Source of the DNA: Pseudomonadota bacterium | GTDB taxonomy: Bacteria > Desulfobacterota > Binatia > UBA9968 | Length of the DNA: 64,000 bases | Direction: 5' to 3' | NCBI GenBank assembly: GCA_021324155.1 | Contig: JAJPJQ010000013.1 | Coordinates: 62,001 to 126,000 of the forward strand | Shown here: positions 49,768 through 55,848 of the stretch, one piece after another | Position numbering within the stretch: position 1 is the stretch's first letter | Layout: every line of letters starts with the position of its first letter | Made by a program: the position numbers and the translations under genes | The notes under the pieces: generated by a model | Told to the model about the DNA's origin: nothing | What the model saw: only the letters and a program-made list of their open reading frames with translations | Database searches by the model: none

Positions 49768-50799
49768 ATGACGCGTTGTAGAAAAATATTCGCCGGCCTG
49801 GCTTTCGTCGCCGCGCTTGTAGCGGCGGGGGAATTATCTCAAGCGGCACAACCCGCAGACTCTACGGCGAAGCTTATCGAAGGTGCGAAGAAAGAAGGTC
49901 AGGCGGTTTGGTACACGACGACAACGTTGGACCAAAGTCAGCAAGTGGTCCAAGCGTTCGAAAAAAAATATCCGTTTGTCAAAGTCACCCTTTTTCGGAC
50001 CGGCGGCGGACCGCTGCTGAATAAGATCTTGACCGAAAGCCGCGGCGGCTTGAACGGATGGGACGTTACGGTCGGACGAGGAGAAATGGTTCTCCCGCTG
50101 ATCGATAAGAAGCTCCTCGCCACCTATATCTCGCCCGAACGCAGTGGTGTCTATCCGGACCTGATGGATAAAAGAGGCTACTGGACGGCCTGGTATGTCA
50201 ATGGCTACGTCCTCGGCTTTAATACGAAGCTCGTCAAGAAAGACGATGTTCCGAAAACTTACGAAGCGCTGCTCAATCCCAAATGGAAGGGCGGTCAGAT
50301 CTCCGTCGATACCGAAGCCTTCGGCATGCTGCAGGGATTGATCGGCGCATGGGGCAAAGAGAAGGCGGTCAATTATTTCAAGCGGCTCGCGGCGATGGAT
50401 CCCGTGCCCAAGCGCGGCAACACCGAGCGCGTTCAGCTCGCTGTCGCCGGCGAATATCCGCTCATCCTCGCCTACAACCAGACCATCGAGCGCATGACGC
50501 AGCGTAAAGCGCCGATCGACTGGGTCCCGCTCGAGCCCGTCGTCATGCAGGTGAACCCCGCCATGCTCGCCGCCAAGGCGCCGCATCCGAACGCGGGCCG
50601 GCTGTTCATGGACTTCCTCATTTCGAAAGAAGGCGGCGAAATGCTGCGCAGCTTCCAGCGCATCCCGGTCCGCAAGGACGTCGAACCCGATCCGCCGAGG
50701 CTGTTTCGTGGCTTCAAATACGTGATCGAAAGCCCTGAGGGATACAAAAACTTCGACGAGACGGTGCGTCTCTACAACAGCATCTTCAAGCTGCGATAG
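49768..50799 (+). CDS. Orphan periplasmic substrate-binding protein
   Basis: A 343-aa family 1 binding protein with a signal peptide (CRKIFAGLAFVAALVAAGEL). Mature start KLIEGAKKEGQAVWYTTTTL, then VKVTLFRTGGGPLLNKIL, DVTVGRGEMVLPL, and a family-typical LVKKDDVPKTYEALLNPKWK. No permease or ATPase gene is close. It has a good promoter. Similar proteins are found in multiple copies in related lineages. Substrate not predictable, possibly Fe(III), a polyamine or an organic anion. Confidence 0.83.
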   Translation: MTRCRKIFAGLAFVAALVAAGELSQAAQPADSTAKLIEGAKKEGQAVWYTTTTLDQSQQVVQAFEKKYPFVKVTLFRTGGGPLLNKILTESRGGLNGWDVTVGRGEMVLPLIDKKLLATYISPERSGVYPDLMDKRGYWTAWYVNGYVLGFNTKLVKKDDVPKTYEALLNPKWKGGQISVDTEAFGMLQGLIGAWGKEKAVNYFKRLAAMDPVPKRGNTERVQLAVAGEYPLILAYNQTIERMTQRKAPIDWVPLEPVVMQVNPAMLAAKAPHPNAGRLFMDFLISKEGGEMLRSFQRIPVRKDVEPDPPRLFRGFKYVIESPEGYKNFDETVRLYNSIFKLR

Positions 50800-50934
50800 G
50801 CAGGAAGCGAGCTAGGAAGCGATCAGCTGCAAAGATAGAATTCAGCAGAACTAGCGTGTTTCTTCTGACTCGCGAATACTGCCTGCTGTTTTTTTGGGTT
50901 AGCTGAGTTGCTGACGCTTCTTAGCTGACAGCTA
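50800..50934. repeat. AGCTGA-rich intergenic region between convergent genes
   Basis: The spacer between the binding protein and purA is less GC-rich than the genes and contains short direct and inverted copies of AGCTGA/TCAGCT (for example GATCAGCTGC near 50820 and TTAGCTGACAGC near 50920) plus GCTGTTTTTTTGG. It is related to the element at 9225-9282. No gene is seen; it may serve as a bidirectional terminator. Confidence 0.4.
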
Positions 50935-52242
<1,308 letters not shown>

Positions 52243-52299
52243 TCAGCCGGTTACCCGTCAGCTACAACTCCCAAAGCTGAGAACTTACTGCCGACCGGC

Positions 52300-53895
52300 T
52301 CATAATTTTACCAGCTCGGCCGAGACGATGCTCGGCAGCGCGCGAAGCGCGTCCAGGGTCTCTTTCGGTGCCGCGTCGTCGATGTGGATGCACGAGATCG
52401 CCATGCCGCCGGCCTTCTGGCGGCCGAGCTCCATGCCGGCGATATTGATGCCTTTCTCGCCCAGCAGCGTGCCGACGGCGCCGACCACGCCCGGCACGTC
52501 GCGGTTGTGGAGTATCAGGATATACCCTTCGGGCACCGCTTCGAGATAGAAGCCGTCGATCTTCACGATGCGCGCGATGTCCCGGCCGAACATGGCGCCG
52601 GCGACCTCGAGCTGCTTGTCTTTCGTCTTTACCCTAACGCTGATCGAGCTCGCGAAATCGCCCGGGCGGCTGCTCTTCGACTCGACGACCTTGATGCCGC
52701 GGTCGCGCGCGACGAGCGGCGCGTTCACGTAGTTGACGCTTGACTCCATCACCGGCGTCAGAATGCCTTTCAATACGGCGAGCGTGAGCGGCGCGACGTC
52801 GTATTGCGTCACGTCGCCGGAGTATTCGATCTGTACTTCTTTGGGCAGCTGCATCGACTGCATCTGCACCTGGAGGCTGCCGAGTTTTTCCGCAAGCGTC
52901 AGATAAGGCCGGAGCGTAGTTAAAAGCTCCGGGCTCACCGACGGCATATTGACGGCGTAGCGGATGACGCCGCGAACGAGGAAGTCGACCATCTGCTCGG
53001 CGACGGCGATCGCGACGTTTAGCTGCGCCTCGTCGGTCGAGGCGCCGAGGTGCGGGGTCGTGATCACCTGATCCAGCTTGACCAGCGGGTGATCGGGGCC
53101 GGGCGGCTCGTCGACGTAAACATCGAGCGCGGCGCCGGCGACTTTCCCTTCGCGGATCGCCTCGGCGAGATCTTTCTCGTCGACGATGCCGCCGCGTGCG
53201 CAGTTGATGATGCGCACGCCTTTCTTCATTTTCGCGAACGTCTTCTTGTTGATGAGCCCGCGCGTCTCGGCCGTGAGCGGCACGTGAACGGTGATGAAAT
53301 CCGAGCGCGCGTAAATCTCATCGAGCGTCGCCATCTCGACGCCCATGCGCGCCGCCGCCTCGGGCTGCACGAACGGATCGTAGCCGAGGACTTTCATCCT
53401 GAGGCCGATCGCGCGCTCGGCGACGATGCGGCCCACGTTGCCGAGGCCGATGATGCCGAGCGTCTTGTTGCACACCTCGACGCCGGTGAATTTCTCGCGC
53501 GACCACTTGCCGGATTTCAGCGACGCGACCGCCTGCGGGATGTGGCGCGCGAGCGACAGCATGAGCGAGATGGTGTGCTCGCCGGTCGTCACGTTGTTGC
53601 CGCCCGGCGTGTTCATGACGACGATGCCGCGCTTGCTCGCCGCGGCGACGTCGATGTTCTCGACGCCGATGCCGGCGCGGCCGATCACTTTCAGATTGTC
53701 GGCGGTTTCGAGAATATCCTCGGTGACCTTCGTCCCGCTGCGAAGCACCCAGCCGTGGTAATCTTGAATAATCTTTTTGATCTCCGGCGGCTTGATGCCG
53801 ACGCGAACATCGACGACGAAGCCGGGGGTGCGCTCGAAGATCTCCATCCCTTGAGGCGCGAGCGGGTCGGTCACGAGAATCTTCGTTTGTTCCAC
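52300..53895 (-). CDS. serA: D-3-phosphoglycerate dehydrogenase, long form
   Basis: A 531-aa PHGDH that starts serine synthesis. NAD-binding motif GLGNVGRIVAERAIGLRMKV, catalytic Arg/Glu/His in NCARGGIVDEKDLAEAI, PGPDHPLV and TPHLGAST. The C-terminal part has an intervening (ASB) domain (about 315-450) and an ACT domain (about 455-531, with LILHNRDVPGVVGAVGTLL), so serine feedback is likely. It follows the aminotransferase by 28 bases. Confidence 0.95.
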   Translation of the reverse strand: MEQTKILVTDPLAPQGMEIFERTPGFVVDVRVGIKPPEIKKIIQDYHGWVLRSGTKVTEDILETADNLKVIGRAGIGVENIDVAAASKRGIVVMNTPGGNNVTTGEHTISLMLSLARHIPQAVASLKSGKWSREKFTGVEVCNKTLGIIGLGNVGRIVAERAIGLRMKVLGYDPFVQPEAAARMGVEMATLDEIYARSDFITVHVPLTAETRGLINKKTFAKMKKGVRIINCARGGIVDEKDLAEAIREGKVAGAALDVYVDEPPGPDHPLVKLDQVITTPHLGASTDEAQLNVAIAVAEQMVDFLVRGVIRYAVNMPSVSPELLTTLRPYLTLAEKLGSLQVQMQSMQLPKEVQIEYSGDVTQYDVAPLTLAVLKGILTPVMESSVNYVNAPLVARDRGIKVVESKSSRPGDFASSISVRVKTKDKQLEVAGAMFGRDIARIVKIDGFYLEAVPEGYILILHNRDVPGVVGAVGTLLGEKGINIAGMELGRQKAGGMAISCIHIDDAAPKETLDALRALPSIVSAELVKL

Positions 53896-53923
53896 TTTTC
53901 GCTGTCTCCGATTTGGTGAAGGG

Positions 53924-55066
53924 TTAGCGGAGCGTCTCCATCAAGACTTCCTCAGCCGCCGCCACGCCTTGGCCGAATTTGACCTCGGCGCCGAATTTTC
54001 TCAGTCCCATCTCGAGCGCCGCGATCGCGGTCACGACGTCGAACGCGCCCATGTAGCCCACGTGCGCGATGCGGATCGCCTTGCCGCGGAGCTGGTCCTG
54101 TCCCTCGGCAAAGGTGATCAACATCTTGTCGCGAAAGAAATCGAGCAGATGGTCCGCGTTCATGCCTGGCGGAGTCCAGATGCCGGTCGCCGCCGGGCTC
54201 GGGCTCTCGGGCGCGAGCAGCTTCATGCCGAGCGCCGTCGCCGCCGCGCGGGTCGCGCGCGCCATGCGCTCGTGGCGCGCATAAACATTGTCGAGGCCTT
54301 CTTTGCGCATGAGCTGGAGCGAGGCGCGCAGGCCGAAGATCAGCGAGACCGCCGGCGTGAATGCGCCGCTGCCTTTCTGCTGGTTCTTCCGCTCCAGATT
54401 CAGGTTGAAATAAAACCGCGGCAGCTTCGCCTTGGCGGTGCGCGCCCACGCGCGCTCGCTGAGCGCGACGAAGCCGAGGCCGGGCGGCAGCATCATGGCT
54501 TTTTGCGAGCCGGTCACAAACGCGTCGACGCCCCATTCGTCCATCGGAACCTTTTTGACTCCGACGGCGGTGACGCCGTCGACGATGAGAAGGGGACCGT
54601 TCCGCGTCAGCTTCGCGATCTTCTCGATCGGGTGCCATGTCGTCGTCGAGGTCTCGCTCGCCTGCACCAGGATCGCCTGAATGTCGCGGTGCTCTTTGAA
54701 TTTCTGCTCGATCGCTTCAACGGCGACCGGTTTGCCCCATTCGACTTTCAGATCGATCGGATCGAGGCCGAATGCTTTGCCGATCTCGAGCCAGCGCTCG
54801 CCGAATTTGCCGCCGTTTACGACGAGGACTTTTTCACCCGGCGAGAAAAGGTTCGTCACGGCGGCTTCCATCGCGCCGGTGCCGGAGGACGCGAGCACGA
54901 TGACGTCGTTTTTCGTGCCGAAGACCTCCTGGAGCCCGTCGCGCACCTCGAAGAAGATTTTATTAAACTGGGGCGTACGATGGTGGATCATCGTCTCCGC
55001 CATGGCTAAAGCGACTTCGTTCGGGATAGGGGTGGGGCCGGGAGCGAGGAGATACTGTTTGATCAT
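53924..55066 (-). CDS. Class V aminotransferase (alanine-glyoxylate/serine-pyruvate type)
   Basis: A 380-aa PLP aminotransferase. PLP-lysine in TGSQKAMMLPPGLGFV, phosphate-binding and Asp in VDGVTAVGVKK, PGPTPIPNEV at the start. In this group, members act as serine-pyruvate, serine-glyoxylate or, next to serA, phosphoserine aminotransferases. Its position as the first gene before serA makes a role in phosphoserine formation likely but not proven. Its leader contains the ZTP riboswitch. Confidence 0.9.
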   Translation of the reverse strand: MIKQYLLAPGPTPIPNEVALAMAETMIHHRTPQFNKIFFEVRDGLQEVFGTKNDVIVLASSGTGAMEAAVTNLFSPGEKVLVVNGGKFGERWLEIGKAFGLDPIDLKVEWGKPVAVEAIEQKFKEHRDIQAILVQASETSTTTWHPIEKIAKLTRNGPLLIVDGVTAVGVKKVPMDEWGVDAFVTGSQKAMMLPPGLGFVALSERAWARTAKAKLPRFYFNLNLERKNQQKGSGAFTPAVSLIFGLRASLQLMRKEGLDNVYARHERMARATRAAATALGMKLLAPESPSPAATGIWTPPGMNADHLLDFFRDKMLITFAEGQDQLRGKAIRIAHVGYMGAFDVVTAIAALEMGLRKFGAEVKFGQGVAAAEEVLMETLR

Positions 55067-55117: not shown

Positions 55118-55154
55118 AAAAAAGCCTGGACTCTTAGAGATAAGAGACCCAGGC
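55118..55154 (-). terminator. Regulated intrinsic terminator of the ZTP riboswitch
   Basis: On the minus strand, GCCTGG (55154-55149) pairs with CCAGGC (55129-55124) and CTCTTA (55146-55141) with TAAGAG (55136-55131), around loop TCTC, followed by six T. The 5' arm uses bases of the conserved aptamer 3' strand CGCCUGGG, so aptamer and terminator exclude each other. Confidence 0.85.
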
Positions 55155-55214
55155 GTTCGGCCTACTTATGGTTTTGCACTCCCTCGTGGTCAATTCCACG
55201 TACGCCAGTCGCGC
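55148..55214 (-). ncRNA. ZTP/ZMP (pfl) riboswitch aptamer
   Basis: The leader reads, 5' to 3' on the minus strand, GCGCGACUGGCG, then a P2 hairpin CGUGG-AAUUGA-CCACG, then AGGGAGUGC, a variable linker, and CGAACGCCUGGGU. These are the conserved parts of the pfl motif, which senses ZTP and ZMP, the purine intermediate that builds up when 10-formyl-THF is short. It sits between a promoter and a terminator that share its last strand, upstream of aminotransferase-serA-purA. High ZTP should stabilise the aptamer and permit transcription. Recognition was by eye. Confidence 0.85.
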
Positions 55215-55228
55215 AAACCGATGAAATT

Positions 55229-55257
55229 TAACTAGCCCACAAGGGAGATTTTGTCAA
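55229..55257 (-). promoter_or_regulatory. Promoter of the serine/purA operon
   Basis: TTGACA (55252-55257) and TAGTTA (55229-55234) on the minus strand with a 17-base spacer, about 15 bases upstream of the riboswitch. The -35 is perfect. Confidence 0.7.
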
Positions 55258-55329: not shown

Positions 55330-55848
55330 ATGAAGGCTGCTCTCGCGCTTTTACTGCTGTTGGGCCTCGTAGGCTGTGCATCGACCCGCGTCGAAAATCG
55401 ATCCAGAAACTTCACTCAGCTTCCGCCGGAGCTTACCGCCGTTAACTGGAAGCAGAGTCCCAGAGATATTCTCGCTAATGCGAGCGTAGGCGAGCCGCTC
55501 GTCTGGGTCGGTCTCGTCAAGGAAGTACTCGTCTATCGTAACGCCGGAAGCATCGAAATCGATTGGGTATGCCAACACCTGAGATTCATCGACGCTGGTC
55601 CCGCCGCTATAACGAAACGGCCGATCACCGTGAGAGAAGGGACGGGGGTCTTCGGGGTATCGCTTGTAGTCGAAGATATGCCGATCGATGAAGCCAAAAA
55701 ATTCCAGGTCGATCACACCCACGTTCCGCATTATCTCCTCGTCGGCGGAACGCTTGCAGCAGTGCGCGATTGGAAAGGCGAGAAGATCCCTTTCGTAAAA
55801 GCGTTGCGAATGGCGCTGGGCCCACAGCTCGTCTCTTTATCCGAGTAG
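55330..55848 (+). CDS. Small lipoprotein, unknown function
   Basis: A 172-aa lipoprotein with signal MKAALALLLLLGLVGCAS, lipidated Cys16. The mature part (about 155 aa) has no cysteine-rich or catalytic motif; a Slp-like beta fold is possible (EPLVWVGLVKEVLVYRNAGS, VREGTGVFGVSLVV). It is divergent from the riboswitch-controlled operon, and the DUF488 gene starts three bases after it. Function unknown. Confidence 0.7.
   Translation: MKAALALLLLLGLVGCASTRVENRSRNFTQLPPELTAVNWKQSPRDILANASVGEPLVWVGLVKEVLVYRNAGSIEIDWVCQHLRFIDAGPAAITKRPITVREGTGVFGVSLVVEDMPIDEAKKFQVDHTHVPHYLLVGGTLAAVRDWKGEKIPFVKALRMALGPQLVSLSE

Follow-up and report, generated by a model that had tools for sequence, protein, structure and literature searches.

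A ZTP riboswitch with an overlapping terminator ahead of an aminotransferase–serA–purA operon: a predicted transcriptional ON switch for serine and purine synthesis genes

The ZTP riboswitch class was reportedly validated by Kim et al. in 2015. The ON logic of its members, in which the terminator shares a strand with the aptamer, has been worked out experimentally for the switches of C. beijerinckii, F. ulcerans and T. carboxydivorans (PMC10085676, PMC7484762, PMC7337938). In the C. beijerinckii pfl switch, strand invasion opens P3 first and the pseudoknot second, a bound ligand prevents this by stabilising the aptamer, and the response is tuned by wobble pairs and bulges that occur naturally in the invader (same sources). 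Weinberg (2010; PMC2864571) describes many pfl RNAs whose 3′ portion overlaps a terminator, and the genes named there for the motif are those of purine and formyl-THF metabolism, purH, fhs, pfl, glyA and folD; serA is not among these five commonest genes. A whole-switch covariation model for the class is presented in a 2026 study (PMC13273304). Control of serine synthesis genes by RNA, the feature shared with the locus described here, is known from the serC motif, an orphan candidate listed separately from pfl (PMC7266159), and from the glycine/T-box-Ser tandems upstream of serC/serA, which sense glycine and uncharged tRNA-Ser (PMC9481103), but both are RNA classes other than the ZTP switch. 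Within the open-licence literature, no paper was found that links a ZTP riboswitch with serA, the related papers concerning other RNA classes, or with Rnf or NADPH. Since the search was limited to open-licence papers, the regulons below are not claimed to be unreported.

The 64-kb stretch of DNA analysed here (the window) carries a switch with the architecture of C. beijerinckii pfl and its F. ulcerans and T. carboxydivorans relatives, a P1-J1/2-P2 element and a P3 joined to it by an H-type pseudoknot. It differs from the C. beijerinckii switch in lineage, in standing ahead of aminotransferase, serA and purA instead of pfl, and in being predicted from sequence. Minus-strand positions 55222–55140 match the complete ZMP/ZTP aptamer model (RF01750, pfl RNA; cmscan, model positions 1–86 of 86) at 59.5 bits, with an E-value of 4e-7 for the 64-kb window and 4227 families. 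The comparison with the Rfam pfl covariance model, which an earlier note had proposed as a check, is passed with 20 bits to spare over the gathering score of 39. This is the sole Rfam match above gathering score in the window, and the surrounding 4.8-Mb assembly has no other ZTP aptamer match at E ≤ 0.001.

The aptamer parts that the earlier note had named all lie on the minus strand, at the positions that follow. P1 pairs its 5′ strand (55211–55220) with its 3′ strand (55170–55179), and two of its ten model pairs are non-standard in the window. P1 encloses the P2 hairpin (55185–55200), in which CGUGG and CCACG close an AAUUGA loop; both helices are given by the RF01750 alignment and by the minimum free energy fold, as is the P3 stem-loop (55140–55169), extendable to ten pairs between 55169–55159 and 55149–55140. 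The conserved J1/2 is represented by GACUGGCG (55210–55203) and the GGGAG junction, and AGGGAGUGC (55184–55176) and CGCCUGGG (55155–55148) can be read directly. The pseudoknot is formed by four pairs between GGCG in J1/2 (55203–55206) and CGCC in the P3 loop (55152–55155). The features that define RF01750 are thus present, P1 with an internal P2 and the conserved J1/2, and a P3 hairpin whose loop pairs back to J1/2. ACUGGCG, the GGGAG junction, CCGA and CGCCUGGG are all retained, while three residues written as capitals in the consensus deviate: A for G and U for C near the P1/P2 junction, and GGGU for GGGC past the P3 loop. Judged by its sequence, the segment is a ZMP/ZTP aptamer, an added member of a known riboswitch class.

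The 3′ end of the aptamer is shared with an intrinsic terminator (55124–55154, minus strand). Its 5′ arm (55154–55141) lies inside the aptamer and consists of three bases of the pseudoknot strand followed by the P3 3′ strand, the arrangement characteristic of the C. beijerinckii type. The 3′ arm, or invader (UAAGAGUCCAGGC, 55136–55124), forms 13 pairs with it around one bulged U, and the U6 tract (55118–55123) follows. Positions 55153–55111 fold with −14.9 kcal/mol (z −3.1); for the shared strand, the terminator reaches −19.3 kcal/mol, closing pairs included, against −9.7 kcal/mol for P3. When the 60 downstream bases were shuffled with dinucleotides preserved, a hairpin of any kind preceded a U5 run in 132 of 2000 shuffles, and one in 2000 placed a hairpin as stable as the real one beside a U run. 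In step-wise folding, by a model that contains neither pseudoknot nor ligand, P3 persists until half of the invader is made, and the terminator is complete when the U tract begins. ViennaRNA likewise does not model pseudoknots, and its prediction for the full leader favours folds that break P1. A simple terminator scan listed only a piece of P3 and missed this hairpin because of the bulge; consensus scanning for promoters and terminators was replaced by direct folding and a comparison across relatives. Since the terminator reuses the P3 3′ strand and pseudoknot bases, aptamer and terminator are mutually exclusive, as in a transcriptional switch of the ON type. An invader that would take P3 first and the pseudoknot next, a terminator with wobble pairs and bulges and, as a prediction here, the ON logic are all shared with the C. 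beijerinckii pfl switch. The element very probably controls the aminotransferase–serA–purA operon as a transcriptional ON switch, with predicted ligand binding and ligand-dependent read-through.

The first gene of the operon (53924–55066, minus strand), whose start codon lies 73 bases beyond the aptamer match, encodes a class-V aminotransferase (PF00266, 92.1 bits). It is followed after 28 bases by serA (52300–53895), a phosphoglycerate dehydrogenase with an ACT domain (TIGR01327, 674.8 bits, cut-off 454), and after a further 72 bases by purA (50935–52227), adenylosuccinate synthetase (NF002223, 641.5 bits, cut-off 402; TIGR00184, 562.1 bits, cut-off 395.55). The aminotransferase is not SerC by score (TIGR01364, 20.4 bits against a cut-off of 443.6). 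Its best NCBIfam model is BhcA, at 321.5 bits under a cut-off of 650, and its nearest solved relative by sequence is 6pk1, a serine–glyoxylate aminotransferase. PF00266 finds ten places in the genome, of which two were typed, the first gene and L092, and the latter is likewise not SerC. TIGR01364 is passed nowhere in the whole genome; its cut-off is strict, being reached in 4 of 14 control genomes. The conserved position next to serA suggests that the first gene may nevertheless be the organism's phosphoserine aminotransferase. The description of these genes as a serine operon in the earlier note is right for serA and too narrow for the set, which also includes PurA of purine synthesis and opens with a gene that does not score as SerC. 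A small divergent ORF (55330–55848, plus strand) with a lipoprotein-like start, LVGCAS, faces away from the riboswitch and matches nothing in Pfam or NCBIfam.

The aptamer was searched for in 58 genomes, the window's own counted. It occurs in 41 of them with 44 matches, 43 above the cut-off, and all 44 loci were fetched. The match at L087 (37.6 bits, below the cut-off) lacks CGCCUGGG and the expected genes, and was rejected as false. The aminotransferase lies directly downstream of 38 of the 44 matches, and in 37 of these SerA is also visible. A glyA gene stands behind three others (L049, by NCBIfam; L070 and L072, by reading the sequence), and L065 stops at a contig edge. The switch thus stands ahead of purine and one-carbon genes, as is usual for RF01750, and the aminotransferase-serA-purA set and glyA are the only genes identified behind above-cut-off matches in the class. 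In the window's own family and order (G000–G034), 32 of 35 assemblies have the switch. Two of the others, G010 and G024, are incomplete assemblies in which the close aminotransferase was not found, and in G034 this gene begins 88 bases from a contig end, so the leader is taken as not assembled in these three. Farther out in the class, 14 of the 58 genomes have no aptamer match; 13 of them retain the aminotransferase at 51–58% identity. A permissive Rfam search of 15 loci (those 13 together with G034 and G040) found nothing, and serA is beside the aminotransferase in all 15. Because the aminotransferase-serA pair persists without the aptamer in 13 genomes, this control is dispensable for the pathway and the gene pair is wider than the riboswitch. 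Thirteen named relatives were found through the aminotransferase, ten under the name 'Deltaproteobacteria bacterium' and one each as 'Candidatus Binatia', Syntrophobacter and Mariprofundus; they appear to coincide with several genomes already among the 58. Twelve of them carry the switch, the one without being the Mariprofundus locus L043 (53% identity).

The persistence of the pair in other families without a switch, together with the 72-base gap between serA and purA, would fit an arrangement in which the switch controls the aminotransferase and serA alone, with purA served by its own promoter and kept adjacent by old gene order. This is unlikely, since purA comes next in 34 of the 38 loci with a visible serA, the remaining four breaking off before that point, and since in a scan of 50700–55060 the gaps between the genes contain no minus-strand sigma-70-like promoter or terminator-like site. 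That scan gave two sites in all, against 5.6 in shuffles; within the aminotransferase gene it picked up one weak terminator-like site on the minus strand, at 54157–54145. Co-transcription of purA with the other two genes is accordingly the presumed state of the operon.

The overlapping terminator that the earlier note had described, reusing the last strand of the aptamer, is borne out by the relatives: a U-tailed hairpin on the P3/pseudoknot strand, the arrangement of the studied ON switches, is found in 37 of the 44 matches, the window included. These 37 loci form the alignment A1, from which L087 was left out, as were L049, L061, L068, L070, L072 and L074 because they have no U-tailed hairpin. 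Throughout A1, ACUGGCG and CGCCUGGG do not vary. The pseudoknot strands GGCG and CGCC are complementary and invariant in all 37 loci, and they are replaced by GACG and CGUC in other clades of the phylum, which reads as a compensating change for the pseudoknot. Of the 444 cells of the terminator helix, 97.3% are paired; with the partner offset by 1–3 columns the figure drops to 13.9–65.4%. The variation in this helix is nearly all one-sided, with a two-sided change in one of the 444 cells, a count reached in 30 of 500 shuffles; so few two-sided changes are expected if the aptamer freezes one arm, and the helix therefore does not prove pairing independently. For the aptamer, the paired share is 92.2% of cells, compared with 33.5–52.3% for a slid partner. 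P1 has both-sided changes at three pairs, and P2, with 97.3% of its cells paired, has one pair at which UA changes to CG. Two-sided changes fall at four pairs and in 10 cells, a cell count reached in none of 500 shuffles and a pair count reached in 27, while sliding by +1 gives four pairs and 11 cells. The covariation score is 0.092, compared with at most 0.057 when slid and a mean of 0.068 when shuffled, and the 12 pair types are no excess over the 12.1 of shuffles. Since the aligned sequences are related, all of these shuffle tests exaggerate significance. Covariation was rejected as a proof of pairing, the terminator having too few changes and the aptamer counts being no better than those of the +1 slide, and the case therefore rests on the Rfam score, the retention of pairing and the U tract. 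Several members of the class have enlarged switches. In L084, L085 and L086, from one genus, the switch is 129 bases long and the P1-P3 linker contains an additional stable hairpin (about 44 bases, −21.2 kcal/mol); L080 and L083 have shorter linker insertions. The insertion-bearing switches have lower Rfam scores and retain the conserved parts.

Of the promoter proposed in the earlier note, the candidate −35 box TTGACA (55252–55257, minus strand) starts 35 bases upstream of the aptamer match, and an exact TTGACA is found within the 60 upstream bases of 38 of 42 related loci, 28–51 nt from the aptamer match; two of the 44 matches, with too short an upstream sequence, are left out of this count. 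The remaining loci have TTGACA with one mismatch in three cases and with two in L087. The candidate −10 box TAGTTA (55229–55234), separated from it by a 17-nt spacer and lying 6 nt before the aptamer match, is a weak match to the consensus, though TA occurs at equal spacing in most relatives. A sigma-70 scan found no promoter at the riboswitch leader, on account of this poor −10 candidate.

Some switches in the class seem to have a different expression platform. The switches L061, L068 and L074, which come from three genomes in a single family, lack a U tract. In each, the start region shows complementarity to part of the aptamer, the conserved CACGACUG in L068 and L074 and P1 in L061. For the glyA loci L049 and L070, predicted folds allow pairing between the Shine-Dalgarno region and the area of the P3 loop, and the L072 leader is the same as that of L070. 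The folds make this look like a change from terminator to translational control in these three switches and in those of glyA. Two of these loci also have altered genes: L061 (G041) retains the switch with serA-purA while its aminotransferase is reduced to about the first 15 codons, and the aminotransferase of L074 (G047) is without about 33 residues near its start, which is either real or an assembly fault.

The three U-less switches, the apparent burial of the Shine-Dalgarno region in L049 and L070, and the OFF ZTP switches predicted for moeA (PMC9481103) give some ground for supposing that the window's aptamer is real yet acts mainly on translation or as an OFF switch. In the window, however, U6 comes immediately after the hairpin, the start codon is 73 bases away and the part that ligand would stabilise is incompatible with the terminator, all of which makes such an action improbable. 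Ligand changes occur in other riboswitch classes and three consensus residues differ here, but an RNA that has kept its shape for a different ligand or none is very improbable given the motifs retained in the window, ACUGGCG and CGCCUGGG without variation in 37 loci, and the restriction of the genes identified behind above-cut-off matches in the class to the aminotransferase-serA-purA set and glyA.

A transcriptional ON switch is supported by the aptamer, in both sequence and structure model, by the overlap and its conservation, and by the gene order, and it would work as follows. RNA polymerase would initiate just upstream of the aptamer, at the putative promoter, and P1, P2, P3 and the GGCG/CGCC pseudoknot would fold first. 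With ligand absent, the emerging 3′ arm would invade P3 from its base and then the pseudoknot, and the completed terminator would halt transcription at the U tract. During a shortage of 10-formyl-THF, ZMP/ZTP would accumulate and bind at the pseudoknot, and the bound ligand would block invasion, so that the operon is transcribed. Raised flux through SerA, with the aminotransferase as a possible partner in the pathway, would supply serine, the usual source of one-carbon units and of glycine for purine synthesis, and PurA would pull IMP on to AMP. Serine synthesis fits as a target because serine feeds GlyA and hence 10-formyl-THF, the metabolite whose shortage ZTP signals. For Binatota, to which the window presumably belongs, formaldehyde assimilation is described as running through the serine pathway (PMC8262859).

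In a wider sample of the phylum (297 genomes, including the window's), the aptamer occurs in 17 genomes with 28 matches, and 24 newly fetched loci (L099–L122) were classed by the downstream gene. This is a monomeric NADP-isocitrate dehydrogenase in seven, rnfC in five, an aminotransferase in three, glyA in two and fhs in two; kup, sucC, a benE-like gene, a PntA-like gene and an NADP-isocitrate dehydrogenase of another kind occur once each. Apart from glyA, every kind had one representative scored against NCBIfam. Those of rnfC, benE, PntA, the other isocitrate dehydrogenase and sucC are above the cut-off; those of kup, fhs and the monomeric isocitrate dehydrogenase, cut by the locus end, are under it, and so is the aminotransferase, like the window's gene. 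The rest were placed by blastp against these representatives, while the two glyA were recognised by tblastn and by reading the sequence. In 21 of the 24 loci a U-tailed hairpin reuses the P3/pseudoknot strand, and these loci therefore also look like ON switches. The switch precedes an NADP-isocitrate dehydrogenase or rnfC in 13 of them (L100, L101, L103, L107, L110, L111, L112, L115, L116 and L118–L121), and in all 13 the terminator overlaps the P3/pseudoknot strand; these switches would link ZTP to the supply of reductant or 2-oxoglutarate. Each of these 13 loci spans about 3.1 kb, with the switch at its centre. In L099, an aptamer of 68.1 bits (1501–1587) is followed by kup, a potassium transporter, from 1698. 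Above-cut-off aptamers also stand ahead of a benE-like benzoate-type symporter (L104), a PntA-like transhydrogenase (L105) and sucC, succinyl-CoA ligase (L122).

Being arranged like the C. beijerinckii pfl switch, the window's switch adds a member and not a mechanism: the sensor is ordinary and the gene set somewhat unusual. With the riboswitch class and its mechanism well established, it is the regulon that carries the advance, with serA–purA in the window and NADP-isocitrate dehydrogenase and rnfC elsewhere in the phylum. The 37 natural variants of the aptamer–terminator overlap are material on how the invader sequence tunes the switch. The alarmone ZTP would be tied to serine synthesis, a step ahead of its usual folate genes, in a little-studied lineage. 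That ZTP acts across the phylum as a general signal to supply more one-carbon units and reductant, beyond its part as an alarmone of folate genes, is a tentative and on balance rather doubtful extension. If true, ZTP would turn on serine synthesis, the entry of one-carbon units, in the window's class, and the same overlap architecture would govern an NADP-isocitrate dehydrogenase, the Rnf complex and a transhydrogenase-like gene in other clades.
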